Assembly (NCBI GenBank): GCA_003162425.1
Contig: PMOK01000082.1
Location: forward strand, 3,262 to 67,261
From: Bryobacterales bacterium
GTDB lineage: Bacteria; Acidobacteriota; Terriglobia; Bryobacterales; Bryobacteraceae
Reading direction: 5' to 3'
DNA length: 64,000 nucleotides
Program-made: the position numbers and the translations under genes
Notes under the pieces: model-generated
What the model was told of the DNA's origin: nothing
The model's input: the letters and a program-made list of their open reading frames with translations, nothing else
The model's database searches: none
Shown: one piece after another, positions 9,237-49,799 of the stretch
How positions within the stretch are numbered: position 1 is the first letter of the stretch
Layout of the letters: the number at the start of each line of letters is the position of its first letter

Positions 9237-9325
9237 GCTGGAGTGGCGGAACTGGCAGACGCACGGGACTCAAAATCCCGCGGCCTTCACTGGTCATGAG
9301 AGTTCGACCCTCTCCTCCAGCACCA
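9237..9325 (+). tRNA. tRNA-Leu(CAA)
   Basis: Acceptor GCTGGAG/CTCCAGC, anticodon stem-loop CGGGA-CTCAAAA-TCCCG (anticodon CAA), long variable arm, GTTCGACCC T-arm, encoded CCA. Confidence 0.93.
9305..9325 (+). repeat. attL core: tRNA-Leu 3' end
   Basis: CGACCCTCTCCTCCAGCACCA, exact 21-bp direct repeat of 49779-49799. Confidence 0.85.
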
Positions 9326-10872: not shown

Positions 10873-10911
10873 AATCTCACCCAAAAACAGTACTACAAAA
10901 GCGGTGAGATT
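10873..10911. promoter_or_regulatory. Inverted repeat upstream of parA-like gene
   Basis: AATCTCACC (10873-10881) and GGTGAGATT (10903-10911), perfect 9-bp arms, 21-bp spacer. Confidence 0.55.
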
Positions 10912-10948
10912 TGCCCTTCTCAAATCCTCCTTGAGAGTAGAGGGCAAA

Positions 10949-23313: not shown

Positions 23314-24089
23314 CGCCGGTAGCCTAGTTCCGCGCCCCCGCTAACGGGAAGGATGCAGCCCGTGATGAAACGCGCTTTCTCGGACAATAGAAACACAGCG
23401 GCATCGGCGATCACGTCGCCTTGCGGACAGTATCCAAGCGCGTGAATCTGATCCAGGTACGTTCGGATCGACGTTGCATCCGGTTGCTCGCCGCACCAGC
23501 GTTCGAGCGTCGGGGTCCAAACACCAGCCGGACAAACGGCATTGACTCGGACGCCGAACCCGGCATAGTCAAGCGCCATGGACTTCGTTAGCGCGATCAT
23601 GCCGCCTTTGGTTGCCGTGTAGGCGGCGTGAATCGATTGCCCGATGAGACCCACCATGCTGGCGGTGTTCAGGATGACACCACGGGTTTGCTTCAGCATG
23701 GGCAGCGCTGACCTCGTCGTCCAATAAACGCTTTTTAGATTGACATTAAACAAACTGTCCCACTCCCGCTCTGAGGTTTCCTCCAACGTCTTGGAAGGAC
23801 TCGCAATTCCTGCGTTGTTGTGCACCGCGTCGATCCGGCCAAAATGGGAGAATGCTGTTTTCACGGCACGGTCGACCGAGGCGCCATCAGCGACATCACA
23901 CATCAGGGCGATGCTGCCGTCGCCCGCATGCGCCGTCCCCTCCGCGGCGTGCTCGTCGACATCGACCACCACGACCTTCGCGCCTTCAGCTGCATAAACA
24001 ATCGCACATGCGCGGCCGATTCCGCTCCCGCCTCCGGTAATGAACACGACCTTGTCTTCGAGTAGCATCTTGGCCCTATTGCGCCTCAT
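23310..24089 (-). CDS. SDR oxidoreductase, probably 2-keto-3-deoxy-L-fuconate dehydrogenase
   Basis: VVFITGGGSGIGRACA, NNAGIA, YTATKGGMIALTKSMALDYA; coupled to the fuconate dehydratase; substrate inferred from context. Confidence 0.82.
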   Translation of the reverse strand: MRRNRAKMLLEDKVVFITGGGSGIGRACAIVYAAEGAKVVVVDVDEHAAEGTAHAGDGSIALMCDVADGASVDRAVKTAFSHFGRIDAVHNNAGIASPSKTLEETSEREWDSLFNVNLKSVYWTTRSALPMLKQTRGVILNTASMVGLIGQSIHAAYTATKGGMIALTKSMALDYAGFGVRVNAVCPAGVWTPTLERWCGEQPDATSIRTYLDQIHALGYCPQGDVIADAAVFLLSEKARFITGCILPVSGGAELGYRR

Positions 24090-25362
24090 ACGATTTATGG
24101 CATTCGGCGATTCCCTTCTCCATCGCGTCGAGAGCTGCCGGAATCCCCATCTCGCCGGTCATGGCGGAACGAACCGTACGCCAAAGCAGCTCCTCGATCG
24201 CGGGATAGTAAGGAAGGCTGGGCGGAACTAGCACGTCTTCGGCGATAACACAATCCAGCAGCCTCCAGCGCTCGCTCTCCGCGGCGGGCGCTTCGGAACG
24301 CATTTGCGCAACTACGGCCGGGCGCGCGGGAACCGACCCTTGACGCGCTTCTTGCAGTTGCTGTTCGGGCGAGGTGAGAAACCGAAGGAGTTGGATCGCC
24401 TCTGGCCGCTGGATGCCGCGCCGCGTGAGTGCGAAAGTATGCGATCCGGCATATGCTTTGTGGATTCCGCCGGGCCCGGCGGGCATTCTGGCCAAGCCGA
24501 GTTGGCCGCTCACCTGAGATACGGCAGGATCGTGATACACGCCGTAATAGCCCGGCCAATCGCAAATCATTGCGGCAAGGCCGTCGCGGAAACACTGGTG
24601 CGCCTCGTCGTAACGCCACTCAACCACTCGCGCGGGAACCGCACCCGAACCGTACAACTCACGAATGACTTCCAGCGCCCAGGTGCCACCCGCATTGTTT
24701 AGCTGCGGGATCTTCGATTGAGGGAATAAGCGTGCACCGGCCATCTCAGCCAATTCAAAAAACATTCCGAACAGGCCGGAGCCCCGTCCGGTAAATACGA
24801 AACCAAAAAAGCCGCGGCCCGTCGATAGCCGGCGTGCTGTCTCGATGAGTTCCGTCCATGTGCCTGGGGCCTGCACCATTAGGTCCCTTCGATAATGCAG
24901 CAATTTCACATCGATGTTGCGCGGCAGCCCATAGAGGCGGCCTTCGATTCTTGCGCGCTCCATGAGCGGCGCATAGAAATCGGCGATATTGAGTTGACTG
25001 ATAGCGTCATCAAGAGGCGCGAGAAAAGATAGCTGCGACGGCGCGTACTTGGTGTGCGTGCTTACCAGGTCGTACGTGACCTCGGGCAACGACGCGAGAT
25101 GCGCATTCAACTGCTCGTGAGGAGCGCGAAAGCCGATGTTCACGCGGGTTCCCGCCGCGCGCTCGAAATTGGCAATGCACGCGTAGAGTTGGTCATACAT
25201 GGGGCCACTGATCAATGCGACGCACAACGGATCAGGCATCGACGTGCTACCCTTTCCGTCCGCGCGACCGCTGACCATTGTGATGAGCTTCCATGGATCC
25301 TTCGACGCTCTCCCGGGCTGCATAGGTCGATGCGGCGAAGATCCGGATACAGTGCTGTACAC
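24076..25362 (-). CDS. Family-1 solute-binding-like protein without obvious signal peptide
   Basis: SBP-type motifs (YDLVSTHTKYAPSQLSFLAPLDD, YGLPRNIDVKLLHYRRDL, GSHTFALTRRGIQRPEAIQLLRFLTSPEQQ); start uncertain. Confidence 0.72.
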   Translation of the reverse strand: MYSTVSGSSPHRPMQPGRASKDPWKLITMVSGRADGKGSTSMPDPLCVALISGPMYDQLYACIANFERAAGTRVNIGFRAPHEQLNAHLASLPEVTYDLVSTHTKYAPSQLSFLAPLDDAISQLNIADFYAPLMERARIEGRLYGLPRNIDVKLLHYRRDLMVQAPGTWTELIETARRLSTGRGFFGFVFTGRGSGLFGMFFELAEMAGARLFPQSKIPQLNNAGGTWALEVIRELYGSGAVPARVVEWRYDEAHQCFRDGLAAMICDWPGYYGVYHDPAVSQVSGQLGLARMPAGPGGIHKAYAGSHTFALTRRGIQRPEAIQLLRFLTSPEQQLQEARQGSVPARPAVVAQMRSEAPAAESERWRLLDCVIAEDVLVPPSLPYYPAIEELLWRTVRSAMTGEMGIPAALDAMEKGIAECHKSYEAQ

Positions 25363-25736
25363 ACTGGCCGGCGAGAATCGGATTGCCCTCGCGGTTCATG
25401 TCCGGCACCAGACGTTGATTCGGCAGGTCGCCAATCCAGGCGTCCGGTTCTTGCTCGCTCGTGAGGACGCGGATCTGAATAAACGCAATAGCGGGAAGAG
25501 GAATTTCGCTCCGATCTCGGCCAACACAGGGTTGCCGGGCGCACTCGTGAGCGCGATATGAAAGTGGGGATCTCTCTGAACGGCGCCTGCGCCAGGCTGA
25601 ACTCCTGAGGCCAAATGGTTTCCGCGACTCGATGCCGGGCGTGGAGACGGCCCGTCACGATGACTTGCTCAAGCGCCGAGGCAAGTTGTTCTTTCAGAAG
25701 GACGCCGTGCGAGGCGTCATCGAGAAGGGCGGGCAT
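25230..25736 (-). pseudogene. GntR/FCD transcriptional regulator, frameshifted
   Basis: LKEQLASALEQVIVTGRLHARHRVAETIWPQEFSLAQAPFRE (ORF 25212-25736) continues in another frame as FCD-like RDPHFHIALTSAPGNPVLAEIGAKFLFPLLRLFRSASSRA (ORF 25396-25614). Confidence 0.6.
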
Positions 25737-25963: not shown

Positions 25964-28174
25964 ATGGACCTGCGGCGAGTTCCCGCTCGGAGGGTTAGCG
26001 ATCATGCAGCGCTCCGTTGGCTCGCCGCCTTGTCGTTCTTCATCGCCGCTGGTGGAAGTAGAAGCGGGTTCGCCCAGGAGTTAGACACAGCCATTCGGCA
26101 GCAGGGCGAAAGCCGTTTCACGGTGATGGATGAGGTACGGGATTCACAGGAGCGAACCGCTTATCTCAAGCTCTATCGCAAGAAGAAGCCCGAAGAGAGG
26201 CACAGTTTGGCGGAGCGTTTCATTGAGACGTATCCGCAATCGTGGCTTCTGGGGCACGCTTATGAGGCGGCCGCTAAAGCGTCCATCGATCTCGGCTCCT
26301 ATGACCGAGCTATCCAAGAGGCAAAGCAATCTTTACGTTTGTTTCCTGAGAATCCCCTCTTACTGGTTCCGTTGGCGAACGTTGCGGCGCAACAAGGATT
26401 GATGCCTCTCGCCGAGAGGACGGCCAAAGATGCCTTGGAGTATCTGGATGAATTCGGGCCGCCGGCTGGTACGAAGCGGAAGGCCTGGCCGGAGCTGAGG
26501 GACAAACTGAAGGCATCGGCCCGCTTCGCGCTGGGCAGAGTATACGCCAGCGAGGGTCTCGCCGCCTCGGGCTCGTCAAGGCGCGCTCTTCAGTTGAAGT
26601 CGTTCGACGAACTGACAACGGCATTGCAGTTGAACCGGAACGATGCGGAGATCTACTACTTGCGAGGCGTTGTGGAGGAGGCTCTGGGCCGGTCGGCTGA
26701 CGCCGCGTCAGACTATGCCGAAGCGGCCCGGCTAGGACACAATCTGCAGGAGACGGCGGCGAAATCGTTGCGGCGCATTTACGCCGCCGACCGAAGGCGC
26801 AACGGAGCAACGATTTCGATTCACCCGGGACCAGGAGACGACTCCGGCTTCAACAAATTTCTGGCTGGCCTGCCACCGCCCAAGATTCCAGCAGCGGAGA
26901 ATCGCACCAGTGCCACGGAGGGGGAACCGGGGCCGTACGCAGGGTCATCGTCCTGCGCCCCTTGCCACGGGCGTGAATACGAGTCGTGGCGGCAGACTGG
27001 TATGTCGCGCATGTTGCGTCCGTACAAAGCCGAGAACATCATGGGCGATTTCAGTCCCGGCACCCAGTATCGAGGCGACGATGGCGCAGTCATTCGTTTG
27101 GGTAACGACGGCCGGCCTTTCTTCGAGATGTCCGCGAGTGACGGGCACCTTGCGAAGTATCATGTCGACTTCACCATCGGCTCGAAATGGCAACAAGGGT
27201 ATGTAACGCGGCTCCCCGACGGTCGAATGCAGGTGCTTCCCATTGAATACAACAAGATTCATGGCCAATGGGTGAACTATTGGAAATGGATTGACCCGCC
27301 ATCGAGCGATCGCGCCGACATAAGTAAGTTTCCGCGGCTGCTTCCGGCCACTAACTACCAGCTGAATTGCGCCATGTGCCATACCAGTCGGTTGCGAGCG
27401 GCGTCCACTCTAGAAGAAAGCATGATGCAAGCTCGGTTTCAGGAAGCCGGCATCGACTGCGAAATGTGTCACGGTCCCTCAAAGCAGCACGTCGACCGGA
27501 TGCAGCGGGAAAACCGGAATTACTCGATAGATTCGACAGGCACAGACGGGTTAGCGGCCCCGGTGAACTTCCAAAAGACGAAAAATAGGGAAGAAATAAA
27601 GGTTTGTGCGCAATGCCACCGTCAATCGGCGGAAAGAGAAGCTAGTGTGCATAATGAACTGAATTACTCGTCAACCGGACCGAGCTTTCTCTTGCCCAGT
27701 GTAAGCCGCAACTACCCGGAGTTCCTGCGGCGCGCTTTCTATAAGGACGGGCGGTTCCGGGAAACGACATTCATTGTCGAAGCGTTCACCCGCTCAGCTT
27801 GCTATCGCCAGGGCACGGCGCGCTGCTCCAGTTGCCATGATCCGCATCCGGTGGACGCCGCCACGAATCCCGCATCGCTCAAGTTCCTGGATCATCCCGA
27901 TCAGCGGTGCTTGCAATGTCATGAAAAGTTCCAGAATAGTCCGGAACGACATACCCATCACGCTGCCAGCTCGGAAGGAAGCAGGTGCGAGGCATGCCAC
28001 ATGCCGCGCATCATGAACAGTGTCATGTTCGAAGCCCGTTCTCACGAGATCGATGACCTTCCGGACGCCGGTATGACAGCGCGATTTGGACAGAAGGATA
28101 GCCCCAATGCGTGCCTCCTCTGCCACACCGAAAAGGACACGGCCTGGGTTTCCGATAAGCTGGCGCATTGGTGA
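25964..28174 (+). CDS. TPR-containing multihaem (8 CxxCH) cytochrome c protein
   Basis: N-terminal TPR-like helices; CAPCH, CAMCH, CEMCH, CAQCH, CSSCH, CLQCH, CEACH, CLLCH. Confidence 0.87.
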   Translation: MDLRRVPARRVSDHAALRWLAALSFFIAAGGSRSGFAQELDTAIRQQGESRFTVMDEVRDSQERTAYLKLYRKKKPEERHSLAERFIETYPQSWLLGHAYEAAAKASIDLGSYDRAIQEAKQSLRLFPENPLLLVPLANVAAQQGLMPLAERTAKDALEYLDEFGPPAGTKRKAWPELRDKLKASARFALGRVYASEGLAASGSSRRALQLKSFDELTTALQLNRNDAEIYYLRGVVEEALGRSADAASDYAEAARLGHNLQETAAKSLRRIYAADRRRNGATISIHPGPGDDSGFNKFLAGLPPPKIPAAENRTSATEGEPGPYAGSSSCAPCHGREYESWRQTGMSRMLRPYKAENIMGDFSPGTQYRGDDGAVIRLGNDGRPFFEMSASDGHLAKYHVDFTIGSKWQQGYVTRLPDGRMQVLPIEYNKIHGQWVNYWKWIDPPSSDRADISKFPRLLPATNYQLNCAMCHTSRLRAASTLEESMMQARFQEAGIDCEMCHGPSKQHVDRMQRENRNYSIDSTGTDGLAAPVNFQKTKNREEIKVCAQCHRQSAEREASVHNELNYSSTGPSFLLPSVSRNYPEFLRRAFYKDGRFRETTFIVEAFTRSACYRQGTARCSSCHDPHPVDAATNPASLKFLDHPDQRCLQCHEKFQNSPERHTHHAASSEGSRCEACHMPRIMNSVMFEARSHEIDDLPDAGMTARFGQKDSPNACLLCHTEKDTAWVSDKLAHW

Positions 28175-29859
28175 CCGATTTGCTGTTGAACAAGAAAGGG
28201 CCGGCAGGTCTCGCACTCGTCGCACTGGTTGCGCTCGCTGCGGCCTCCGCCGACCATTCCAACCGATTCGACGACGTGACGGGCCGGACCGGCATTCACT
28301 TCGTGAACCAAGCCAGCCATACCTCGCACAAGTACCTGCCGGAAACGATGGTCGGTGGGGTTGCGCTGTTCGACTACGACAACGACGGCCTACTCGACAT
28401 TTTCTTCGTCAATGGGGCGGCCCTGGCCGATCCGGTGCCCGCAGGTGCGCATCCCGACAAGTCGGCCCCCAAGTATTGGAACCGGCTCTATCGCAACAAC
28501 GGCGACGGCTCATTTACTGACGTCACCGAACAGGCCGGCCTCCAGGGCGATGGCTTTGGAATGGGTGTCGCGGTCGCCGACTTCGATAACGACGGTTACG
28601 AAGACCTGTACGTAACGAATGTCGGAAAGAACATCCTTTACCACAACAACGGCGATGGAACGTTCACCGACGTAACCGCTGCGGCCGGCGTCGGCGGCAG
28701 CGGTTGGTCCGCCGGTGCTGTGTTTGTCGACTACGACCGGGATGGCCTGCTGGATCTGTTCGTCTCGCGTTACTTGACGTGGGACTTCTCCAAGGACGTT
28801 TTCTGCGGAGTGGCGAAGCCAGGCGGACGCGGCTATTGCCATCCAGATCTGTTTCCACCAATTACGCACCTTCTGTTTCATAATGAAGGCCACGGCCATT
28901 TTCGAGATGTCTCGGACGACAGTGGTGTATCGAAGTTCCCCGGCAAGGGGCTCGGCGTGGCGATCAACGATTACGATCGGGACGGGTGGCCGGACATCGC
29001 TGTCGCCAATGACTCGGTTCCCGAGCAACTCTTCCACAATCTGCACAACGGTAAGTTTGAAGAGGTCGGATTGACCGCGGGCATCGCCTATGACGAAAAC
29101 GGAGCCGCATTCTCCGGGATGGGCATTGACTTCGCCGATTACGACAACGATGGGTGGCCGGATATCGTTATCGATTCACTCGCCAAGCAAAAGTACGCGC
29201 TGTTTCACAATCACGAAGACCACTTTGAATATGTATCCGGGCCGGCGGGGCTTTCGGCTGCGAGCGTTAATCACTCTGCCTGGGGCATGAAGTTCATCGA
29301 CTATGACAATGACGGAGCAAAGGACCTGTTCTTCGGGCAGGGCCACGTGATGGACAATATCGAGACGACCCAGCCAGATGTGCGGTACCTGGAGGCCCCC
29401 ATGTTGTTGCGGAACGTAGCAAACCAGTTCGTGGATGTTTCGAAGCAGAGCGGCGAAGTGTTTCAGAAGGCCTTGGCCGCACGCGGCGTCGCGTTTGGCG
29501 ATTTTAACAACGACGGTTTTGTCGATATTGTTATCAACTGCAACGATCGGCCGCCAGTGATTCTGGAGAACACAGGAAACAGGAACCACTGGCTGATCGT
29601 GAACACCGTTGGGACGAAGAGCAACCGGGACGGCATCGGAGCCCAATTGCGGATCGTTACGGACGACGGTAAGCACCAGTTTGCCGTCGTGACGACCGCG
29701 TCAAGTTATTTGTCCGCCAGCGACAAGCGCGTCTATTTCGGATTAGGAAAAGCGTTGATCGTGAAAGAACTCGAGGTCGACTGGCCGAGCGGGCTCGTCG
29801 ATCGGTACCACAATCTCAAAGCCGATGAGATCTTCGTCGCCCGCGAACGGATACCCTAA
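28168..29859 (+). CDS. CRTAC1-family FG-GAP/ASPIC-UnbV protein
   Basis: Repeated DYDNDGLLDIFFVNG/DFDNDGYEDLYVTN; C-terminal GTKSNRDGIGAQLRIVTDDGKHQFAVVTTASSYLSASDKRVYFGLG; TTG or GTG start likely. Confidence 0.88.
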   Translation: MVTDLLLNKKGPAGLALVALVALAAASADHSNRFDDVTGRTGIHFVNQASHTSHKYLPETMVGGVALFDYDNDGLLDIFFVNGAALADPVPAGAHPDKSAPKYWNRLYRNNGDGSFTDVTEQAGLQGDGFGMGVAVADFDNDGYEDLYVTNVGKNILYHNNGDGTFTDVTAAAGVGGSGWSAGAVFVDYDRDGLLDLFVSRYLTWDFSKDVFCGVAKPGGRGYCHPDLFPPITHLLFHNEGHGHFRDVSDDSGVSKFPGKGLGVAINDYDRDGWPDIAVANDSVPEQLFHNLHNGKFEEVGLTAGIAYDENGAAFSGMGIDFADYDNDGWPDIVIDSLAKQKYALFHNHEDHFEYVSGPAGLSAASVNHSAWGMKFIDYDNDGAKDLFFGQGHVMDNIETTQPDVRYLEAPMLLRNVANQFVDVSKQSGEVFQKALAARGVAFGDFNNDGFVDIVINCNDRPPVILENTGNRNHWLIVNTVGTKSNRDGIGAQLRIVTDDGKHQFAVVTTASSYLSASDKRVYFGLGKALIVKELEVDWPSGLVDRYHNLKADEIFVARERIP

Positions 29860-29904
29860 CGGATTTCGCGGGATCTTCCATATAATCGAGGTTCTGCACT
29901 GTCC

Positions 29905-31536
29905 ATGAGACGCTACCGCTTTTTGTTCTGGATGGGGGTTGCCGCAAATGCACTGGCGGCGCCACCGGAGGCTCGCTACACGGGTTCGAAAACCTGCTAC
30001 GGTTGCCATGCAGAGATCTATCGCTCCTTTGCGAAGACTGACATGGCACGTTCGATGCGTCCTGCTTCCGAATTAGATAAAGCGAGTGTTCCTGGAGAGG
30101 CCATGGTAGCCGTGCCAGGGACCAATCGAACGTTGCGAGTTGTGGGGGATCGCACCGGCTGGCGGCAAAGCGAGAGTGAGCCAAACCTGTTTGAAGACGA
30201 GCACCGTCTTGATTACATTGTCGGTTCGGGAAGTAATGGTCTGACCTTTCTCATTCGACGGGGCAACTACCTGTTTGAAGCGCCGCTATCTTACTACTCA
30301 AAACCAAATAAGTGGGACTTGTCTCCCGGCTATGAATTCGCAGATTATGGTTTCTCGCGCCAGGCACCCGAGGGGTGCATCCTTTGTCACAGCGGCCGCG
30401 CCCAGCCGGTACTGGATCATCCGGGCGCCTACCGCGATCCGCCGTTTCAGGAATTAGCGATTGGCTGCGAGAATTGCCACGGACCCGGCCAGGCGCATGC
30501 GCACGATCCCAAGCGCCGCGGGAATATTGTGAACCCGGCGAAACTGTCTCCGCGGCTGGCTGAAAACATATGCATGAGCTGTCACCAAACAGGTGACGCC
30601 CGGGTATTGCAACCCGGCAAGACGTATCAGGACTTCCGCCCGGGGCAATGGCTCTTCGACACCGTCGCCATTCTCAAAGTTCCTCCAAACAGCGAAGAAA
30701 GACACGAGCAGGATCTGCTGGAGCACAATGCCGCCATGCAAGCGAGCCGCTGTTTTACTCAAAGCGGCGGCAAACTGAGTTGTCTCACCTGTCACGACCC
30801 CCACGTCCAACCGCCGGAGGCCGAGGCCTCAACATACTTCAAAGCGAAGTGTCTCACCTGCCATACCGAGCGGAGTTGTAGACTATCCTTGGCGGTGCGC
30901 CAGAGCCGCGCGGACAATTGCGTTGGCTGCCATATGCCCAAGCGCAGCGTTGCAGTAATCTCGCACTCCGCGTTGACTAATCACCGCATTCCCGCGCGCC
31001 CTGACCAACCGCTGCCGCCTTGGAAGCCGACTGCCGGCAGCGATCTTCTAATCGTCAACCAGCCCGAAGGGAGGTCAAGCCCGCTTTCCGACATCGCTTT
31101 GTTACGCGCGTATAACGACTTGGTTGGCCGGTCGCCGGAGTACCAAAGCAGGTATCTTGCCCTGCTGGATAAGTTGGGCCATTCCGAAGGTGACAATCCG
31201 TATGTCCAGGCAGCCCTGGCACACCAGGCGCTCGCCGAGGGCAGGAACGAGGAGGCCCTGGTTCATCTGGCAACGGGAGTCCGCTTAGGCGAAGCGGCCG
31301 TCTATGAGGATATGGCCATAGCTCTGGCTAATCTCGGCCGCGACGACGAGGCCATTCCCGCTTTCTTGAAGGGAATCGATATCGATCCGTATCGGGCGGA
31401 ATCGCGGAAGCGCCTGATTCTTGAATACGTCAAGCTGAAACATTACACTGAGGCTAGACGCGCCATGGAAGAGTATGTCGGGCTGTTTCCCGGGGACACA
31501 TTCATGCGCGGTCTCCTCGCTCGGGTTTCAAATTGA
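29905..31536 (+). CDS. Multihaem (7 CxxCH) cytochrome c with TPR-like C-terminus
   Basis: CYGCH, CILCH, CENCH, CMSCH, CLTCH, CLTCH, CVGCH; signal peptide. Confidence 0.88.
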   Translation: MRRYRFLFWMGVAANALAAPPEARYTGSKTCYGCHAEIYRSFAKTDMARSMRPASELDKASVPGEAMVAVPGTNRTLRVVGDRTGWRQSESEPNLFEDEHRLDYIVGSGSNGLTFLIRRGNYLFEAPLSYYSKPNKWDLSPGYEFADYGFSRQAPEGCILCHSGRAQPVLDHPGAYRDPPFQELAIGCENCHGPGQAHAHDPKRRGNIVNPAKLSPRLAENICMSCHQTGDARVLQPGKTYQDFRPGQWLFDTVAILKVPPNSEERHEQDLLEHNAAMQASRCFTQSGGKLSCLTCHDPHVQPPEAEASTYFKAKCLTCHTERSCRLSLAVRQSRADNCVGCHMPKRSVAVISHSALTNHRIPARPDQPLPPWKPTAGSDLLIVNQPEGRSSPLSDIALLRAYNDLVGRSPEYQSRYLALLDKLGHSEGDNPYVQAALAHQALAEGRNEEALVHLATGVRLGEAAVYEDMAIALANLGRDDEAIPAFLKGIDIDPYRAESRKRLILEYVKLKHYTEARRAMEEYVGLFPGDTFMRGLLARVSN

Positions 31537-34086
31537 ATGTGGCTTAGACCTTCGCTATTTCTCCTCACGTTCATTTCTGCGCGATCGGGTTTTGCCGCCG
31601 AATGCATCCGTCCGTCTGATCTCGATAGCGAGATTAAAGCGAAGCCCTCTGCGGATGCCTACAACGCGTTAGGCGGTTGGTTCGCGGAGCACCGGCAACC
31701 AGCGTGCGCGGTGTCAGCCTTCACTGAGGCCGCCAAGTTAGACCCGGCGTCGTTTCCCAGTCACTTCAATCTTGGCCTTGCCCTTTTGCAATTCAACCAG
31801 CCTGGGCGAGCGGTGTCCGCTTTGCGAGTGGCCGTGAAGCTGAAGCCATCCGATGCACCGGCGCACGGAGCACTGGGAGTCGCGTTGCAGGAGTCGGGCC
31901 AGTTGGACGAGGCCGAATCTCAACTGGAAGCCGCGCTCGCCATCGATTCGCAGTCAGCCTATTTGCTCGATCATTTAGCCCAAGCCTATGCGGCCCAACG
32001 CCGGTTTGCTGCCGCCATCGAGAAGTGGACGGTAGCGGCCCGGCTTTCTCCGTCCGATTCGGACATCAAGATTGAGTTGGCGGTCGCGTATGCGCAAAAC
32101 AAGGACTCCGCACGAGCGATCGACATTCTCAAAATCCTGGTCCAGGCCGCCCCGAATCTGGCGAACGCTCACTTCAACCTCGCAACAATCTACGCCGGCG
32201 ATAAACGGTTTCAAGAAGCTGCCGATGAATATGCGGCAGCGCTGAAGCTGGAGCCGGACAACGACGTGACCCGCCTGGCGCTCGCAAAAGCGTACGCCGA
32301 ATCCGCCAACTATCAAGAAGCGCTCGCGGCGGCCAGTGACTATGTGAAGCGGAAGCCGGCGGATTGGGAAGGGCACTATATCCTCGGGAGCGCGTACCGT
32401 GGTCTTGGCCGATACGTGGAGGCTGAGCGAGAACTCACCCAAGCGTCACGAAAGGGCTCCACCGAATACGGCGTGCAGTACCAGTTAGGCTTTGTGCTGG
32501 CGCGCGAAGAAAAGCCGCAGGAGGCCCTTCCCCACCTGCGGAAGGCGCTGGAACTGCGGCCCGATTCGGCGGAGACGCACTTTCAGCTGGCCAATGTCCT
32601 AAAGGCCTTGCAAAGGACCGAGGAGTCCCAAAAAGAGCTGGAGATCTTCCGCAACTCGAAGCAGCGAGGAGTGGAAGAAAGCATGGCCCAGGCAGCCGGG
32701 GGCGGCGCGAACCAGCTTCTGCTGAACGGGGATGCGGCGCAGGCGGCGGCAAAATACCGCGAGGCATTGGAGCACGATCCCAACGATGCGAAAACCTGGT
32801 TCAATCTTTCCATCGCTCTGGATGAAATGAAAAATAAGCCCGGGCAGCGACAGGCCCTCGAGAAGGCCGTCTCACTCGATCCGAAGCTCACGTTGGCGCA
32901 GAACCAGCTGGGCCTGCTCGATGCGGCGGAGGGCAGAACCGCCGCAGCGGAAAAACACTTCAAAAAGGCGATTGAAGAAGATCCACAGTTTGCCGATGCC
33001 CAGAGCAACCTTGGCGTACTGTACGGTGGCATGGGCCGTCTTCACGACGCCGAAGTGTTGTTTCGCAAGGCGACCGAAAACAACCCACGGCTGCCGGAGG
33101 CGTTCTTGAATCTCGGCTTGATTGAGGCGAGTCAGTCCCGGTTCGCGGACGCGGCACGCGATCTCGAAAAGACTCTCGATATCGATCCGAAAAATGCAAA
33201 AGCCCTCACGGCGCTCGGCATGCTTCAGAAGAAGCTCGATCGTGGAGCCGACAGCGTGGCGATCTTACAACGTGCTGCCGATTTGCAGCCCAACTCTCCA
33301 GAGGCTCATTTGAACCTCGGCATCGCGCTGGCAGATAACTATCGCAGCGACGTAGCGCTCGAAGAGTTCCGAAGAGCTGTCCAGTTAGCCCCGGGCAGTG
33401 CGGCGCCGCACTATAACCTGGGCCGAGCCTACTACGATTTGCGCCACTTTGACGAGGCTGTGGCTGAGTTGAAGACTGCCTGCCAGCTGGCGCCGTCCTA
33501 CCCCTCGGCACTTTATTTTCTCGGCTTGAACGAGAGCAAATTAACTCACTATGATGAAGCTGTGGCTGCGCTCGAAAAGTTGATCGCATTGCAGCCCAGG
33601 AATGCCGACGCTTTGTTCCTGCTGGGGCAAAGCTTCCAGAAACTCAACAAGACCGAGGAGGCGATCGAGGCTTGGAAGAAGGCTGGCGAAATCGACCCTA
33701 GCGGTACGGAAGTTCTCTACAACCTGTCGCGAGCTCTCTTAAAAACGAATCCGGCCAAAGCGAAGGAATACCGTGACCGGCTGGTCGCCCTGCAGCAGCA
33801 AAAGCAACTCTTGACGGAGGCGGACACCTTAGGAAACTTCGCTCTTGCCTCCGCAAAACGAGGCGACTATTCGCAGGCGGTTTCCCAATTTCACGAGGCT
33901 CTCGATCAGTGTGGAGATTGTCCGTCGAAAGCGGATCTCCACAAAGATTTAGGCTTGATTGAGTGCAAGTCTGGCGACATCGACAACGGAGAAAAGGATC
34001 TCCAGATCGCCAAGTCGCTCAAGCCTCACGATGTTGACATTCAAAAAGCGCTCGATATCATTGCCGCGACTCGACGCCCCAAGTGA
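31537..34086 (+). CDS. Large secreted TPR-repeat protein
   Basis: 849 aa of repeated A.A.YN LG.AL motifs; ATG immediately after upstream stop. Confidence 0.9.
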   Translation: MWLRPSLFLLTFISARSGFAAECIRPSDLDSEIKAKPSADAYNALGGWFAEHRQPACAVSAFTEAAKLDPASFPSHFNLGLALLQFNQPGRAVSALRVAVKLKPSDAPAHGALGVALQESGQLDEAESQLEAALAIDSQSAYLLDHLAQAYAAQRRFAAAIEKWTVAARLSPSDSDIKIELAVAYAQNKDSARAIDILKILVQAAPNLANAHFNLATIYAGDKRFQEAADEYAAALKLEPDNDVTRLALAKAYAESANYQEALAAASDYVKRKPADWEGHYILGSAYRGLGRYVEAERELTQASRKGSTEYGVQYQLGFVLAREEKPQEALPHLRKALELRPDSAETHFQLANVLKALQRTEESQKELEIFRNSKQRGVEESMAQAAGGGANQLLLNGDAAQAAAKYREALEHDPNDAKTWFNLSIALDEMKNKPGQRQALEKAVSLDPKLTLAQNQLGLLDAAEGRTAAAEKHFKKAIEEDPQFADAQSNLGVLYGGMGRLHDAEVLFRKATENNPRLPEAFLNLGLIEASQSRFADAARDLEKTLDIDPKNAKALTALGMLQKKLDRGADSVAILQRAADLQPNSPEAHLNLGIALADNYRSDVALEEFRRAVQLAPGSAAPHYNLGRAYYDLRHFDEAVAELKTACQLAPSYPSALYFLGLNESKLTHYDEAVAALEKLIALQPRNADALFLLGQSFQKLNKTEEAIEAWKKAGEIDPSGTEVLYNLSRALLKTNPAKAKEYRDRLVALQQQKQLLTEADTLGNFALASAKRGDYSQAVSQFHEALDQCGDCPSKADLHKDLGLIECKSGDIDNGEKDLQIAKSLKPHDVDIQKALDIIAATRRPK

Positions 34087-34295
34087 AGCTTTTTTTCCGC
34101 AGTGCGGGGACCGCCCTCTCCCTCCCTTCTCGCGTTGCTCACTTTATGTCCGCAATCGGAGCACACATTGCCATTCCGGCGAATTACAAAGTAGCCCATA
34201 TTACACTAATTCGTTTAATTCTCTTCTAACGAGAGCCGTTACACTTTGGAAAAGGCAACTTCCCTTTTTCCTGTCAGTTTGCGTAAATTTTCTTC

Positions 34296-34324
34296 TTGAC
34301 AGTCACCCGGACCACTAATACAAT
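34296..34324 (+). promoter_or_regulatory. Sigma70-like promoter upstream of Oar-like receptor
   Basis: TTGACA-17 bp-TACAAT. Confidence 0.6.
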
Positions 34325-34524
34325 TCCACTATTGGTTTAACGCTACTTGGTCGGTGAACTCATTTTCCGCACAAATTGACGGATAGGTACTCCGCCGCCG
34401 GACTCCTTCGGGGAGCCCCGGTGGAAAGAAGTATTTTGCAAGAAACGCGGTCGCTGTACGAAGTTCTTACAGAAGCAAGCGTCACTGCCAGCGTTTGGCA
34501 GCAAAAGGGGTCCAAGTTAAGCCT

Positions 34525-37500
34525 ATGCAACGTCGCTGCTCCCATCGAGTTCTCAATCACGCCCGTCTAACAGCAATCACTCTCTGCCTGTTGTTCCTGG
34601 CGAAGCCCGTAACCCTCTCCGCGCAGCAGGCTGCGTCGGCGATTAACGGCACCGTGACCGACGCATCGGGAGCAATTATTCCCGGGGCGACCCTCACACT
34701 GTCCAACAGCGCAACGGGCCTGTCTATCACAACTCAGACGAACTCCGCAGGCATCTATAACTTTGTGAATGTAATGCCGGCGGCCTACAGCATAAAGGTT
34801 GTGAAGGAAGGGTTCAACACGCTTACCGAGGCAGGGATCGTCATGCAGGTGAACCAGACGGCCACGTATGACTTCAAACTGAAGGTGGGCGTGACGCAGC
34901 AGACGATCGAGGTGGAAGCGAGCGCTGTCGCCATTGAGTCGTCCACCGCTGAACTCGGAACCGTCATCAACGAGGAAGCGGTTAAGGATCTGCCGTTGAA
35001 TGGGCGCAACTTTACGCAGTTGCTTTCCCTGACCCCTGGCGCCAGCCCGATCAGCGTGGCGCAGAATAGTGGGGGCGGCGGCGGTTTCGCCGGTAACGCC
35101 ATCGGCTCATTCGCTTACCCGGCCCTCAATGGCCAGCGCAACCGCAGCAATATGTTTCTGTTAGACGGCGTTGTTGACCTGGGGTCTTTCATCGGCAACT
35201 ACAACGTTCAGCCCATCGTAGACGCCGTGCAGGAATTCAAAGTTCAGTCGCACAACGACTTGGCGGAATGGGGGCAGGCGCCGGGCGGGATTGTCAATGT
35301 CGTCACAAAATCGGGAACCAACTCCTACCACCTTACGGTCTGGGAGTTCTTACGGAATAACGACCTGGACGCGAATGGCTTCTTTGCCAACTCACTGGGC
35401 GCGCCGCGCAATGCTCTAAAGCAGAATCAGTTTGGTGTTGCCGGCGGCGGCCCGGTGATCCTCCCCAAACTGTATAACGGTCGCAACAAAACCTTCTTCT
35501 TTGGCGCCTACGAGGGCTATCGTCAAAACGTAGCGTCCCAAAGCACCGGTCTCGCTCCGACGGCGGCACAAGTCGGTGGCAACTTCCAAGGATTCGCCAC
35601 AATCTACGACCCGACCACCGGCACGCCTTTCGCCAATAACACCATCCCATCGACTCGAATCAACCCCATCGCGGCCGCCTACGCCGCAGTGAACTATCCC
35701 ACCGGTCCCTACGTGCATAGCGGGAATAACTACATTGACAGCTCTCCCACGAAACTGAAGCAGGATACCTACTCAGTCCGTGTGGACCAGACCCTCGGCG
35801 AACATGACACCATTTTTGCGCGCGTGTCTCAGTATTTTGAGCCGCAAACGTCCTCTGACGGATATGCGGGCGCCACAAGTTTCGCCAATGACTACGGTTC
35901 GAATGGCGCAATCCACGAGGTACATGTCTTCGGCCCAACCGCCGTGCTGGAGGGATTTTTCGGCCGCAATCTGGGTGATGCCGATACCGGCAACAAGCCG
36001 CTGGGTGTGGGTACGCTCGGAGCGCAATTGGTCACATTGGGCGCCTCTCCCAACTTCCTCGGCAACTTCCAGGGCTCCTCGGCCGTGTATGTTCCCGGCA
36101 TGGGTGCGTCAGGATACCTCGGGGGCTCGGGACAGAGCGCACAGGATACTCGCTATGCCGACGATTGGACGTTCGGCGGCAGTTTTACCAAGATCATTGG
36201 CCGGCACTCGCTGAAGATGGGTGCGAATTTTGCCACCAACAATACGCGTTCGCCTATCTACAACACATCTGACTCATTCTCGATCGTGCCAACGCAAGGT
36301 CCCACCGGAACTGGCGGCGATTCATTCGCTTCGTTCCTGCTCGGCCTTCCCGACGGTGCAAGCCGGCGGAACGTGCTCGAAACGGAGCACGGTGGCTGGG
36401 TCGACGGCGCATATTTCCAGGATCAGTTCAAAATCAATTCCCGGCTGACGATGAACATCGGTCTGCGCTGGGATGTCACGTTGTGGCCCATCTACGGCCA
36501 GACGCCGGCGCCCGACGCTTACGTCGGAGACATCAACTTCAACAACGGAACATTTGTGCTCGCCAACGTCCCCGGCCCCTGCACGGCCACACAAGGCTTC
36601 CCCTGCATCCCAACCGCTCAATATGGCGGCGGGATTGGCACTGGACAGTTGCCGCCTAATGTTGTGGTGACCAGCCACAAGAATGGGTCCATTTACTCAA
36701 ACGACCATAGCGACTGGCAGCCGCGTCTCGGTTTGGCTTATCGCTTAACGGACAAAACCGCGATCCGCGCCGGCTACGGCCGCTATTATGACAATTGGAA
36801 CGCGATCATCCAGTTGGCTCAAAACTATGAAGGAACCTGGCCCGACGTAGGCCAACTCATCGTCAATAACCTGAATCATCCGGGCGGAATCAAAGGCTCG
36901 ATCGGTAATCCTTTCAATCTGGCCGCGGGGAGCGTTGTTTATCCCGCGCCAACGCCTTTCCTGAGTTCCGGTTTTGAAGACTGGTACGTCGATCCAGGCA
37001 AATACAAAATGCCCTATTCGGACCAGTGGGATTTCGCCGTTGAGCAGGGATTAGGTAGCAATATCATCCTTTCTCTTGCGTATGTCGGAGCCCACGACGG
37101 CCAGTTGAATCAAGGGACCATCGCCAATACGGATCCGACGCCCGGAACGACCTCGACTGAGACGCAACGCAAGCCGTATCCGTATATTCCGGTGACGTTC
37201 TACGATAAAAGCGTCGGCATAAGCAGCTACCATGCATTCCAGTTCCGGCTGCAACAGCGCGCCACTCACGGCCTCTCTTACATCATTTCCTACACGCGGT
37301 CGAAGTCCATCGACAGGGGTTGTTCCGGTTCTTTTGGCGCGGAAGGCTGTGAGACGCAAGACCCTTATAACACCAGGAACGATCGCAGCGTCTCGGGATT
37401 TGATCTGCCCAACATCTTTTCGGGCAGCTTCGTCTACAACATACCGATTGGCAAGGGCAAATCGTTCAGCACGAACAACAAGTTTGCCGATTACGTCCTC

Positions 37501-37959
37501 GGTAACTGGCAAGTCAGCGGTATTCTCAGCATGCACTCCGGCACGCCGTTCGATGTAACGATGGCCAATGGTGATACGGCAGGAACGGGGAATGGCACTA
37601 CCCGAGCGAACCTGGTGCTTTCCGACCCCTATCAGTCAGGCGGCGGACTTCAGTGGCTGAATCCCGCGGCCTTCGCTAGTCCGCAAGTGGCAACCGCAAC
37701 CCAAGTAGGAGCTTGGGGTAATTTAGGTCGCAATAGTCTAAGAACTCCGGGCTTCAAGAATCTGGACGTCTCGATCTCTCGAATTTTCCCCATTATGGAG
37801 AAAGCCAACCTTCAGTTCCGCTGCGACTTTTTCAATATCACGAACTCCGTCATGTTGGGAGGGCCGAACAGCACTTTGGGGAATCCAAACTTTGGGCTGA
37901 TAACGGGCGTTCAAAACGTCGCGCGTCAGATTCAGTTCTCGATGAAGCTCGCGTTCTGA
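34525..37959 (+). CDS. Oar-like TonB-dependent receptor with carboxypeptidase regulatory-like domain
   Basis: INGTVTDASGAIIPGATLTLSNSATG; EAVKDLPLNGRNFTQLL plug; C-terminal outer-membrane beta-barrel ending LAF; start chosen at ATG 34525. Confidence 0.9.
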   Translation: MQRRCSHRVLNHARLTAITLCLLFLAKPVTLSAQQAASAINGTVTDASGAIIPGATLTLSNSATGLSITTQTNSAGIYNFVNVMPAAYSIKVVKEGFNTLTEAGIVMQVNQTATYDFKLKVGVTQQTIEVEASAVAIESSTAELGTVINEEAVKDLPLNGRNFTQLLSLTPGASPISVAQNSGGGGGFAGNAIGSFAYPALNGQRNRSNMFLLDGVVDLGSFIGNYNVQPIVDAVQEFKVQSHNDLAEWGQAPGGIVNVVTKSGTNSYHLTVWEFLRNNDLDANGFFANSLGAPRNALKQNQFGVAGGGPVILPKLYNGRNKTFFFGAYEGYRQNVASQSTGLAPTAAQVGGNFQGFATIYDPTTGTPFANNTIPSTRINPIAAAYAAVNYPTGPYVHSGNNYIDSSPTKLKQDTYSVRVDQTLGEHDTIFARVSQYFEPQTSSDGYAGATSFANDYGSNGAIHEVHVFGPTAVLEGFFGRNLGDADTGNKPLGVGTLGAQLVTLGASPNFLGNFQGSSAVYVPGMGASGYLGGSGQSAQDTRYADDWTFGGSFTKIIGRHSLKMGANFATNNTRSPIYNTSDSFSIVPTQGPTGTGGDSFASFLLGLPDGASRRNVLETEHGGWVDGAYFQDQFKINSRLTMNIGLRWDVTLWPIYGQTPAPDAYVGDINFNNGTFVLANVPGPCTATQGFPCIPTAQYGGGIGTGQLPPNVVVTSHKNGSIYSNDHSDWQPRLGLAYRLTDKTAIRAGYGRYYDNWNAIIQLAQNYEGTWPDVGQLIVNNLNHPGGIKGSIGNPFNLAAGSVVYPAPTPFLSSGFEDWYVDPGKYKMPYSDQWDFAVEQGLGSNIILSLAYVGAHDGQLNQGTIANTDPTPGTTSTETQRKPYPYIPVTFYDKSVGISSYHAFQFRLQQRATHGLSYIISYTRSKSIDRGCSGSFGAEGCETQDPYNTRNDRSVSGFDLPNIFSGSFVYNIPIGKGKSFSTNNKFADYVLGNWQVSGILSMHSGTPFDVTMANGDTAGTGNGTTRANLVLSDPYQSGGGLQWLNPAAFASPQVATATQVGAWGNLGRNSLRTPGFKNLDVSISRIFPIMEKANLQFRCDFFNITNSVMLGGPNSTLGNPNFGLITGVQNVARQIQFSMKLAF

Positions 37960-37980
37960 GTGTGATCCATCTTTAAATCG

Positions 37981-38024
37981 ACGGCCGGCTCTATGTCAAA
38001 ATACGAGAGTCGGCCGTTTTGTGT
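37981..38024 (+). terminator. Rho-independent terminator
   Basis: ACGGCCGGCTCT...AGAGTCGGCCGT followed by TTTGTGTTT. Confidence 0.7.
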
Positions 38025-38101
38025 TTGTAGAGTTCGCGCACGCCAGGAAACTAACAACCCTGCACAGGCACGCCGTTAAACCGGCGATTGGGGACCCTGC
38101 C

Positions 38102-39889
38102 TTACGGGGCGCTACGCTTGGCTGCGGGCACCAGCGCCTTATTGGTCCATTCGACGGGTGAGGAGTTGCCTTCAGTCAAGGTAATGATGCGGTTCGTCAC
38201 CACCCCTCGAAAGGACTGCTTCAGACCGGAAGGCCATCGGACATCGAGGTCCACGGACTTCGCTGTCCCTAAACCAAAATGTAGGCGAGGGTCGTTGGCG
38301 GAAAAGAAGCTCGATTGGCTCAACACGGTCTGGAGCTGCCGCCGGTCGCCGTAACGGCACAGGACTTCCGCCCCTATCGCGCTCCGGTTAGATCGTGTTC
38401 CAACCAGTTTCACCTTGAGCCACGTCCGGCTTTCGGTCTGGTCATTGCGCAGCAATGACGGCGGCTCGTTCATATTCACGATGAGAATATCCACATCGCC
38501 ATCATTATCGAAGTCGCCGAAGGCGCACCCGCGGCTCATATGTGGCGCGGCGACGCCTGGACCGGCGTCCTCAATCAGTTCTTCGAACCGGCCGCCGCCA
38601 AGATTGCGGAAGACGACGCGCGGCGTCTTTGCGGGATAGTTCGGCAACTTTGCTTCTAATTCCGGATACACGCTGCCCGTCACCAGAAACAGATCTGGCA
38701 AGCCGTCGTTATCCAGATCGACAATTCCCGCGCCCCATCCGATAAACCGGGTCTCCACGCCCAGTCCGGAACCCGCCGTGACGTCCTCGAAATTCCCTTT
38801 GCCGTCGTTGCGATACAGGATATTCGTGTCGTCGGCGAAATGCGTCTTGAAGATGTCCAGGCTCCCACTGAGGTGGGAATCGCCCACACCCACTCCCATC
38901 CCCGCCTGTTCCATGCCGTCCTCATTCAAGGCGACACCACGCGCCAGTCCCTCTTCGCGAAAGGTCCCGTCGTGGTTGTTCATGAACAGCATGCTGGATG
39001 TGGAATCGCAGGCCACATAGATATCTGGCCAGCCATCGCGGTCGAAATCCGCCGCCACCACCGTCATCCCGTATCCTCTGGCCGTCTTCCTAATTCCGGC
39101 GGCCGCGGACACTTCGTCGAACTGCCCATTACCGTTGTTCCGATACAGCGTCATCGTCCCCGGCGGTAGTCCGCGGGGTCCGCAGTTGACCGGTATTCCC
39201 TTCCAGTTACAGTTCGAACTTTCGCCAGGCTTGGGCACGCTCTTGAAGTCGAAATGCAGATAGCTGGCCAGAAACAGATCCAGATGGCCATCGAGGTCGT
39301 AATCGGTGAACGTGCATCCCGAGTACCAACGTGTCTTGTCTGGCACGAAGCCGCAATCTGCCGTCACATCCGTGAACGTACCATCGCCATTGTTCCGGTA
39401 AAGGATGAATCCACCCCAATAGGTGACCACCAGATCCTCGAAGCCGTCGTTGTTGTAGTCTCCGGTACACACCGCCGAGGCCCATCCGGTCCAGCGGAGA
39501 CCTGCCTTTTCGGTCACGTCGGTGAAAGTGCCATCTCGATTGTTCTTGTACAGGCGATTCGAAAGCCCGGCGGGCGTTTGTGTAATAAGTGTCCCGTTTA
39601 GAACGAACAAGTCCATCCAACCGTCATTATCGTAGTCGATAAAGGCGCAGCCGCAGCCTACAGTCTCGAGGATGTAGTCTTTCTTCTCCGCGCCGCCATA
39701 GATCACTGGGAATGTGAGTCCGGCGTCGCTCGCAACATCCACAAAGCGCGCAGGAAAGGGGATGCCCGATGGTTTTCCCCTCGGCTGTGCCTTCACGTTA
39801 CGGGTGGCCACGCCTTGACCAAGCAGCGGCAAAACGCCGAGACCGTGTACGCCAAGACAACTGAGTGCAAAATCTCGCCGCGTCATCAA
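38102..39889 (-). CDS. CRTAC1-family FG-GAP/ASPIC-UnbV protein, Tat-like signal
   Basis: MMTRRDFALSCLG; DYDNDGWMDLFVLNG, NNRDGTFTDVTEKAG; C-terminal GTRSNRSAIGAEVLCRYGDRRQLQTVLSQSSFFSANDPRLHFGLG. Confidence 0.9.
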   Translation of the reverse strand: MMTRRDFALSCLGVHGLGVLPLLGQGVATRNVKAQPRGKPSGIPFPARFVDVASDAGLTFPVIYGGAEKKDYILETVGCGCAFIDYDNDGWMDLFVLNGTLITQTPAGLSNRLYKNNRDGTFTDVTEKAGLRWTGWASAVCTGDYNNDGFEDLVVTYWGGFILYRNNGDGTFTDVTADCGFVPDKTRWYSGCTFTDYDLDGHLDLFLASYLHFDFKSVPKPGESSNCNWKGIPVNCGPRGLPPGTMTLYRNNGNGQFDEVSAAAGIRKTARGYGMTVVAADFDRDGWPDIYVACDSTSSMLFMNNHDGTFREEGLARGVALNEDGMEQAGMGVGVGDSHLSGSLDIFKTHFADDTNILYRNDGKGNFEDVTAGSGLGVETRFIGWGAGIVDLDNDGLPDLFLVTGSVYPELEAKLPNYPAKTPRVVFRNLGGGRFEELIEDAGPGVAAPHMSRGCAFGDFDNDGDVDILIVNMNEPPSLLRNDQTESRTWLKVKLVGTRSNRSAIGAEVLCRYGDRRQLQTVLSQSSFFSANDPRLHFGLGTAKSVDLDVRWPSGLKQSFRGVVTNRIITLTEGNSSPVEWTNKALVPAAKRSAP

Positions 39890-40331: not shown

Positions 40332-41801
40332 ATGTCCAGAACACCGTTCTTGATCTCACTTCTGTTCGCGTCTTTGGTAGGCGCGCAGACCTATCAGGCT
40401 AGCTGGGATTCGCTCGACAGCCGTCCGATTCCGGCATGGTTTACCGATGCCAAGTTCGGCATTTTCATCCACTGGGGCGTCTACTCTGTGCCCGCCTATG
40501 CACCGGTAATCCCTGGCAAACTCGCCTATGCCGAGTGGTACTGGCACGCCATCACGGAAGGGCAGAAGCCGAATGCGGGAGCGGTGGACGCCGGTAGCTG
40601 GGAGATGCACAAAAAGCTCTATGGCGCCGACTACCCCTACGCCAACTTCGCTCCGCAGTTCCATGCTCAGCTTTTCGACCCCGAGCACTGGGCCGATGTT
40701 TTCGCGCGCTCCGGCGCCAAGTACGTCGCCCTGACCTCCAAGCACCATGAGGGCTTCGCGCTTTGGCCGAGCAAAGAGGCCTCCAAGACCTGGGGACGCC
40801 CGTGGAACTCAGTTGAGGAAGGCCCGCACCGCGATTTGGTCGGCGACCTCACGGATGCAGTTCGTGCCAAGGGGCTGAGGATGGGCCTCTATTATTCGCT
40901 CTATGAGTGGTACAACCCGCTCTATCTCAGCGACAAACCGCGCTACGTGGCCGAGCACATGATGCCACAGTTCAAGGACGTCGTCACGCGCTACAAGCCG
41001 GCAATCATCTTCAGCGATGGCGAGTGGGAAATGACCTCAGAGCAATGGCGCAGCCCCGAGTTGCTGGCCTGGCTCTACAACGAATCTCCGGTGAAGGACG
41101 AGGTTGTGGTGGACGATCGATGGGGAAGCGACACGCGCCACAAGCACGGCGGCTACTGGACCACCGAGTACACGCCCGGAATGGCCGGAAGCGCCCACGC
41201 CTGGGAAGAGAGCCGCGGCATGGGCTTCAGCTACGGCTACAATCGGGCCGAGAGAGTCGAGCACTACCACTCCGGTCGTGAACTGGTCTTGATGCTGGCC
41301 GACATCGTCAGCCGCGGCGGCAATCTGCTGCTTGACATCGGCCCCAGGGCTGACGGAATGATTCCGCCAATCATGGAAGAACGCCTGCTCGAAATCGGCG
41401 ACTGGTTGAAGGTGAACGGTGAGGCGATCTATGCCACGCATCCCTGGACGCACGCCAAGCAGTGGAGTGCCGGCGAACAGCCCAAGGTCAGCTACAACCA
41501 GGAGTTCGAAGCCAGCTACGATTTCGCGAAGCTGATCGCAGCACCGCAGGACGGCAAAGCTTCGGTCGACGCTTTTTTCACCGCGAAAGGCGATAGCTTG
41601 TACGCGATCCTGCCGCGCTGGCCAGGGCGTCAGTTCACTGTGAATGAATATACAGGCGCTACACCGAAGTCTGTTAGGCTACTCGGTTCCAGTGCTCCAC
41701 TGAAATTCAAATTCAATCATGGTACGGTAACCGTCGACCTACCTGAGTTGGCTGATGCATTGCTCGCCCAGCCGGCTTGGGTGCTGAAGGTTAGCCAGTG
41801 A
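40332..41801 (+). CDS. Alpha-L-fucosidase, GH29 (second copy)
   Basis: DAKFGIFIHWGVYSVPAYAPV, LTSKHHEGFALWPS, PAIIFSDGEWE, GGNLLLDIGPRADG. Confidence 0.93.
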   Translation: MSRTPFLISLLFASLVGAQTYQASWDSLDSRPIPAWFTDAKFGIFIHWGVYSVPAYAPVIPGKLAYAEWYWHAITEGQKPNAGAVDAGSWEMHKKLYGADYPYANFAPQFHAQLFDPEHWADVFARSGAKYVALTSKHHEGFALWPSKEASKTWGRPWNSVEEGPHRDLVGDLTDAVRAKGLRMGLYYSLYEWYNPLYLSDKPRYVAEHMMPQFKDVVTRYKPAIIFSDGEWEMTSEQWRSPELLAWLYNESPVKDEVVVDDRWGSDTRHKHGGYWTTEYTPGMAGSAHAWEESRGMGFSYGYNRAERVEHYHSGRELVLMLADIVSRGGNLLLDIGPRADGMIPPIMEERLLEIGDWLKVNGEAIYATHPWTHAKQWSAGEQPKVSYNQEFEASYDFAKLIAAPQDGKASVDAFFTAKGDSLYAILPRWPGRQFTVNEYTGATPKSVRLLGSSAPLKFKFNHGTVTVDLPELADALLAQPAWVLKVSQ

Positions 41802-44900: not shown

Positions 44901-45019
44901 AGCTGGTCGCGGAGGGCGAGTCTCCTCACAATCCCAAACTTAACATCCTGGAATTGGCTGTCTACACCAGCGCCGCGAGTTTGCTGTTGAACCTCGACGA
45001 AACGATCACGAAGGAGTAG
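41990..45019 (+). CDS. PSD1 and planctomycete cytochrome c domain protein (DUF1549/DUF1553 with LamG-like domain)
   Basis: [103 protein letters not shown]. Confidence 0.92.
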
Positions 45020-49778: not shown

Positions 49779-49799
49779 CGACCCTCTCCTCCAGCACCA
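49779..49799 (+). repeat. attR core: 3' end of tRNA-Leu
   Basis: CGACCCTCTCCTCCAGCACCA, identical to 9305-9325; no tRNA body upstream. Confidence 0.85.

Follow-up and report, generated by a model that had tools for sequence, protein, structure and literature searches.

Multihaem cytochrome and CRTAC1 genes flanked by fucose-utilisation genes on a tRNA-Leu-integrated element of a Bryobacterales bacterium

The 64,000 nucleotides analysed here, the window, are positions 3,262 to 67,261 of contig PMOK01000082.1 (assembly GCA_003162425.1, a Bryobacterales bacterium). They contain a 40.5-kb element delimited by 21-bp repeats of a tRNA-Leu end (9305-9325 and 49779-49799). Six genes in its central part form a block that codes for two multihaem cytochromes (cytA and cytB), two CRTAC1-type proteins (crtA and crtB), a protein with tetratricopeptide repeats (TPR849) and an Oar-like receptor (Oar1). 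This block has fucose-utilisation genes on both sides. Its main features are listed in the table.

Table. Features of the element in the window (positions in the window).
Feature	Position	Strand	Support
tRNA-Leu(CAA), integration target	9237..9325	+	ARAGORN
attL, CGACCCTCTCCTCCAGCACCA, 3' end (last 21 bases) of tRNA-Leu	9305..9325	+	exact direct repeat
Tyrosine integrase	9388..10626	+	Phage_integrase E 1e-13
ParA/CbiA-like P-loop ATPase	10904..11716	+	
262-aa protein, hydrophobic segment near C-terminus, no Pfam match	11713..12501	+	
TrwC/MobF relaxase-helicase	12511..15270	+	TrwC E 7e-78, AAA_30 E 2e-43
cytC_ppi, exported 7-CxxCH cytochrome with PPIC rotamase and TPR domains	17207..19153	+	
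fuc2, GH29 alpha-L-fucosidase, Tat-like leader	19655..21040	-	PF01120 E 1e-84
RhaT-family sugar permease	21059..22096	-	PF06379 E 2e-29
MLE, L-fuconate dehydratase (enolase superfamily)	22069..23313	-	top PDB matches 4a35 (ENOSF1) E 2e-97, 1yey (L-fuconate dehydratase) E 3e-91
SDR (short-chain dehydrogenase/reductase), probable L-fucose dehydrogenase	23310..24089	-	top PDB match HSD17B14 (6hno) E 6e-52
SBP, solute-binding-protein-like protein, no evident signal peptide	24076..25362	-	SBP_bac_8 E 4e-17
Decayed GntR/FCD regulator remnant, matches in three frames	25322..25736	-	tblastn
cytA, exported TPR and octahaem cytochrome, OcwA/MccA-like haem domain (predicted)	25964..28174	+	
crtA, exported CRTAC1-type FG-GAP propeller with ASPIC/UnbV	28171..29859	+	FG-GAP_3 E 7e-48, UnbV_ASPIC E 5e-16
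cytB, exported heptahaem cytochrome (7 CxxCH), C-terminal TPR	29905..31536	+	
TPR849, 849-aa exported TPR protein, first base directly after cytB stop	31537..34086	+	
Oar1, CarboxypepD_reg and TonB-receptor-type outer-membrane barrel	34495..37959	+	OMP_b-brl_4 PF25183 E 1e-199
crtB, second CRTAC1-type protein, convergent, Tat-like leader	38102..39889	-	UnbV_ASPIC E 9e-19
fuc1, GH29 alpha-L-fucosidase	40332..41801	+	PF01120 E 2e-119
PSCyt1-DUF1549-LamG-DUF1553 protein	41990..45019	+	
DUF1501 protein, 2 nt past preceding gene	45022..46452	+	
attR, second exact copy of the 21-bp repeat	49779..49799	+	exact direct repeat

The reading frame of cytA spans 25880-28174 (764 amino acids counted from a GTG, with an ATG at 25964) and encodes eight CxxCH motifs together with a TPR region at the N-terminus. 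If crtA begins with the GTG at 28171, its first four nucleotides (GTGA) overlap the stop of cytA. Both CRTAC1-type proteins combine an FG-GAP propeller with an UnbV_ASPIC domain, and the sole PDB match of crtB is human CRTAC1 (9etn). The export signals at the N-termini of all six block proteins were judged by eye. The six genes had been described in an earlier note on this DNA, and their coordinates, CxxCH counts, overlap and spacing were all confirmed. Elsewhere in the same genome (L012, 10074-14122) a CRTAC1 gene overlaps the gene for a 5-CxxCH TPR cytochrome, and fucose genes are absent from this pair.

The five fucose genes on the minus strand (19655-25362) overlap or nearly touch each other. 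The SDR has its best PDB match in HSD17B14, which is known to be an L-fucose dehydrogenase (PMC11293516). The SBP-like gene is part of this operon without an ABC permease; its counterpart in the related locus L086 is 56% identical and adjoins an intact GntR/FCD gene (Pfam), at the position of the decayed remnant in the window. Oar1, two GH29 fucosidases, the RhaT-family permease, MLE and the SDR thus lie together, as in a carbohydrate utilisation (CUT) locus.

The repeat at 49779-49799 is the only other near-copy of attL in the whole genome. A congeneric genome (G002, L165) has the same tRNA and both flanks (identity to the window 93% on the left and 85-91% on the right) and lacks the window from 9326 to approximately 48450, about 39 kb. 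It retains a tail of about 1 kb (P-loop, zeta-toxin-like gene) between tRNA and right flank, which is also present at the right end of the element. Judged from this comparison, the approximately 39 kb were either gained here or lost in the sister genome. A full-length relative of cytA is absent from all four congeners, where the best matches have about 33% identity or below. The tRNA-adjacent integrase, the distant repeat, a relaxase without a full conjugation apparatus and the empty site in a relative are those of an integrative mobilizable element. That the element is mobilizable is suggested by the relaxase; a coupling protein, VirB4 and other type IV secretion genes were not found among the scanned element open reading frames of at least 200 amino acids. 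The G+C content was dropped as a marker, since it is 0.579 in the element versus 0.589 and 0.579 in the flanks.

The right end of the element contains further traces. A DDE transposase remnant, IS6-family-like by reading, lies at 46929-47384. The zeta-toxin-type P-loop gene (48480-49064, minus strand) has about 90% DNA identity to its counterpart at the same tRNA in G002, which hints at a smaller element, either resident or in tandem; the approximately 39 kb possibly lie in tandem with it. The 20-nt sequence GAATCCCTCTCTCTCCGCCA at 47993-48012 resembles a tRNA-Ser 3' end and has a second copy near a contig end (C91:49-68). It might be the trace of another integration; ARAGORN found no tRNA there and thus did not confirm it as a copy of a tRNA. 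Just beyond attR (49904-50468) an AbrB-like gene is followed by a RelE-like gene (read by eye), both common to the sister genome.

To find related loci, 84,980 species genomes were scanned with an alignment of the cytA haem domain. Altogether, 80 loci were kept, all Acidobacteriota by title. CRTAC1 genes are present at 34 of them, cytB-type cytochromes at 29, Oar1-type receptors at 26, TPR849 relatives at 24 and fuc2-type fucosidases at 16. Two loci, L077 and L078, share the order crtA-cytA-cytB-TPR849-Oar1-cytC_ppi on one strand, where the terminal cytC_ppi homologue is 60-62% identical to the window protein, and in L078 this string is preceded by MLE-RhaT-fuc2-fuc1-LacI. A third locus, L086, reads GntR-SBP-SDR-MLE-fuc2-fuc1-cytB-cytA-crtB. 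The gaps in the strings of L078 and L086 are small or the frames overlap. Genes for TPR849, Oar1, cytA, DUF1553, DUF1501, crtB and cytB occur together at three more loci (L135, L146 and L149). In Acidobacteriaceae bacterium KBS 96 (locus L130/L064) an L-fuconate dehydratase gene accompanies cytA and cytB.

Dereplication at 80% identity resulted in 53 cytA loci covering 749 kb. Locus L067/L115, whose cytA reading frame is split, was set aside. With background densities determined from 81 relatives (CRTAC1 2.24/Mb, fucosidase 0.70/Mb), 28 CRTAC1 genes were observed versus 1.7 expected (about 17-fold) and 17 fucosidase genes versus 0.5 expected (about 32-fold). On the cytA tree 13 state changes were counted for the fucose linkage, which is present in several separate clades, and 12 for the CRTAC1 linkage, so that a single inherited event does not account for the association. 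Sequence comparison shows that the cytochrome/CRTAC1/TPR/Oar block recurs in genomes across the Acidobacteriota together with genes for fucosidases and L-fuconate dehydratase. In several relatives (for example G009:C385, G022:C62, G019:C220 and G052:C1) genes for Oar1-type receptors and GH29 enzymes are 0.2-2 kb apart at places that lack a cytA match, which suggests that Oar1 has a role related to fucosides.

Distant cytA relatives (24-27% identity) are located on Rhizobium and Sinorhizobium plasmids. On one Rhizobium plasmid (L167, NZ_CP007047.1, 7923-14707) arylsulfatases, a multihaem TPR cytochrome, a DUF3604 protein and a peptidyl-prolyl isomerase (PPIase) are clustered. In the window a PPIase domain is fused to the cytochrome cytC_ppi.

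These data bear on further claims of the earlier note. It had proposed that the genes form one envelope system and had named a lack of recurrence as the argument that would speak against it; the partners recur across Acidobacteriota, and the gene set is found again on one strand in L077 and L078. Its guess that fucosylated glycans are the substrate gains strong support from the fuconate dehydratase, the HSD17B14-like SDR and GH29 enzymes in the element and in related loci. An extracytoplasmic redox processing of an imported substrate, which the note had called speculative, would be compatible with the predicted fold of cytA, although this fold does not show a substrate. The proposed integration at a tRNA is borne out by the ARAGORN tRNA-Leu, the 21-bp repeats, the integrase, the relaxase and the sister genome without the approximately 39 kb. 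Mobility of the module holds for the element in the window and was rejected as a general property, as homologues of the element's integrase and relaxase were not found within about 10 kb of the other 80 loci. One unrelated integrase (25%) lies in L018, a locus of the same genome.

The haem spacings of cytA and cytB follow a common signature (about 128-139, 30, 43, 72, 28 and 26), to which cytA adds 42 for the eighth haem; the spacing of cytB is that of cytA minus the last haem. An AlphaFold2 model of the cytA haem domain was built from 49 aligned domains (pLDDT 82.7). The top Foldseek match is OcwA (6i5b, E 3.6e-13, TM 0.61) and the second is MccA, thus the model assigns an OcwA/MccA-like fold to this domain. 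OcwA is also the top match of the cytB model (pLDDT 75.9, E 5.6e-6, with a low TM). A profile search retrieved OcwA (E 5e-15) as well as cytochrome c554, MccA and NrfA. All haem motifs are plain CxxCH and none is CxxCK. Only five non-motif His are invariant in the cytA alignment, a number that is insufficient for bis-His ligation of all eight haems. Unless other residues act as ligands, some of the haems may have Met ligation or an open site, as in OcwA (PMC6703420).

We interpret the block, with a probability of about 0.5, as the redox half of a locus that serves the utilisation of L-fucose-containing glycans and is carried by a mobilizable element integrated at tRNA-Leu. Oar1 would bring in fucosylated oligosaccharides, from which the exported GH29 enzymes would free L-fucose. 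The RhaT-type permease would import this sugar, and the SDR and the fuconate dehydratase would start an oxidative pathway in the cytoplasm. CytA and cytB, aided by the CRTAC1 propellers and the TPR proteins, would assemble an extracytoplasmic haem redox complex. Either this complex would convert a substrate derived from the glycan at a haem with open coordination, or it would accept electrons from such a step, and the redox module would in this way be coupled to the use of fucose.

Several observations weigh against this interpretation. The fucose and the cytochrome operons are divergent, with about 0.6 kb between them that holds the broken regulator, so that the two are not necessarily co-expressed. 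Fucosidase genes are present at 12 and CRTAC1 genes at 20 of the 53 dereplicated loci; many contigs end nearby, and neighbours are missed at some loci for this reason. The Poisson P for the enrichments is far below 1e-15 and assumes an even gene spacing, which genomes violate. Sponge-associated lineages carry a sulfatase beside cytA instead, and the linkage is thus not unique to fucose. In addition, the SDR and the dehydratase would already provide a cytoplasmic NAD-dependent route, which makes a periplasmic oxidation unneeded for fucose itself, and a substrate for the redox step has to be postulated.

The alternative that survives best is extracellular electron transfer. Here cytA and cytB would deliver the electrons released when sugars are oxidised to an acceptor outside the cell, such as humic substances or Fe(III), in the manner of OcwA in Thermincola. 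The closest structural match is indeed a cell-surface terminal reductase (PMC6703420), many of the loci come from metagenome-assembled genomes of peat, bog and lake, and clusters of porin and multihaem genes were proposed to serve such a transfer in bog Verrucomicrobia (PMC5615132). However, no MtrB-type porin came up in the element's genes that were scanned with Pfam, and their sole outer-membrane barrel is the TonB-type receptor. The distant relatives on plasmids belong to generally aerobic Rhizobium and Sinorhizobium, the one case inspected adjoins arylsulfatases and a PPIase, and the consistent linkage to fucosidases is left unexplained. We regard this alternative as rather unlikely. Within the interpretation as a redox half of a fucose locus, we lean slightly towards an enzyme whose substrate derives from the glycan, rather than a plain electron outlet, because a porin partner is missing, because the genes are linked to sugar hydrolases (fucosidases, or sulfatases in the sponge type) and because of the Rhizobium and Sinorhizobium plasmid relatives, one of which, in Rhizobium, lies beside arylsulfatases.

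CRTAC1, TPR, Oar and multihaem genes could also cluster through their sheer number, without any joint action. The source genome contains 19 CRTAC1 loci and at least 18 Oar-like matches, and the partners are absent from many cytA loci. The enrichment of both CRTAC1 and fucosidase genes and the overlapping reading frames argue against such a loose neighbourhood, and the partners in L077 and L078 are orthologous rather than random paralogues (identity to the window proteins 71-74% for crtA, 70-75% for Oar1 and 55-56% for TPR849), making it improbable. Least probable is a reductase of a small inorganic substrate (nitrite, hydroxylamine or sulfite), detoxifying or respiratory, of the NrfA/MccA superfamily: MccA and NrfA are retrieved by the fold and profile searches and OcwA slowly reduces nitrite and hydroxylamine (PMC6703420), but all haem motifs are plain CxxCH and not the CxxCK of most NrfA, and the neighbourhoods are sugar loci, not those of nitrogen or sulfur metabolism.

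Many of these soil genomes encode ten to several tens of CRTAC1 proteins, for which, to our knowledge, no function is known in bacteria. Here they are repeatedly joined to OcwA-like cytochromes in a locus whose substrate, L-fucose glycans, can be predicted, and this opens their role to growth and binding assays. Multihaem cytochromes, which are mostly treated under respiration, would be tied to sugar uptake if the interpretation is correct. More tentatively, glycan utilisation loci with redox coupling might form a whole class in Acidobacteria. At these loci a CRTAC1-multihaem complex with an OcwA-like cytochrome and open haems would carry out extracytoplasmic redox chemistry on the glycan or its aglycone during uptake, and such a unit could spread on mobilizable elements.

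Compared with known systems, cytA and cytB are closest in fold to OcwA, the nonahaem cytochrome of the Thermincola cell surface, and mixed haem ligation is likely. OcwA has a beta-rich segment, which in cytA is placed between haems 1 and 2. The differences are the number of haems (eight in cytA and seven in cytB instead of nine), the fused TPR, the location in a Gram-negative sugar locus and the C-terminal three-helix bundle, which is absent from the cytA model, where the chain ends in one short helix right after haem 8. Judged by its haem number, cytA is a relative of OcwA and not a member of its family. The octahaem sulfite reductase MccA (4rkm), the second-best fold, shares the eight haems with cytA and has an unusual long haem-binding motif. 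Unlike MccA, cytA has eight ordinary CxxCH motifs, the TM is low (0.32-0.40), and nothing points to a copper site. MccA contains copper at the active site, shares an extra beta-sheet domain with OcwA, and two open haems of OcwA are putative active sites (PMC6703420).

In the literature, a combination of CRTAC1 and multihaem cytochromes in bacteria was found only for hydrazine-synthase-like gene clusters, which carry a CRTAC1 gene (PMC12758564). As in the window, the CRTAC1/FG-GAP gene adjoins genes for exported haem-enzyme subunits there, but the cytochromes are others and sugar genes are not reported. The L-fucose oxidative pathway, with HSD17B14 and ENOSF1 in mammals and the L-fuconate dehydratase of Xanthomonas, provides the best PDB matches of the SDR and the dehydratase. 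No lactonase and no enzyme of the subsequent steps was found on the element. TonB-dependent CUT loci have been described in bog Verrucomicrobia and others, and planctomycete-type cytochromes with carbohydrate-binding domains have been noted in Verrucomicrobia (PMC5615132). CUT loci and the loci described here have in common a TonB-type receptor, exported glycoside hydrolases, an inner-membrane sugar permease and catabolic enzymes in one locus, and in relatives of the window locus also LacI, GntR or IclR regulators. What sets the loci of the window type apart from CUT loci is a large TPR protein, a pair of CRTAC1 proteins and two or three multihaem cytochromes in addition, and the window locus itself lies on an integrated mobilizable element with a decayed regulator. 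Altogether, the locus can be classed with the TonB-dependent CUT loci, to which it adds the redox module.

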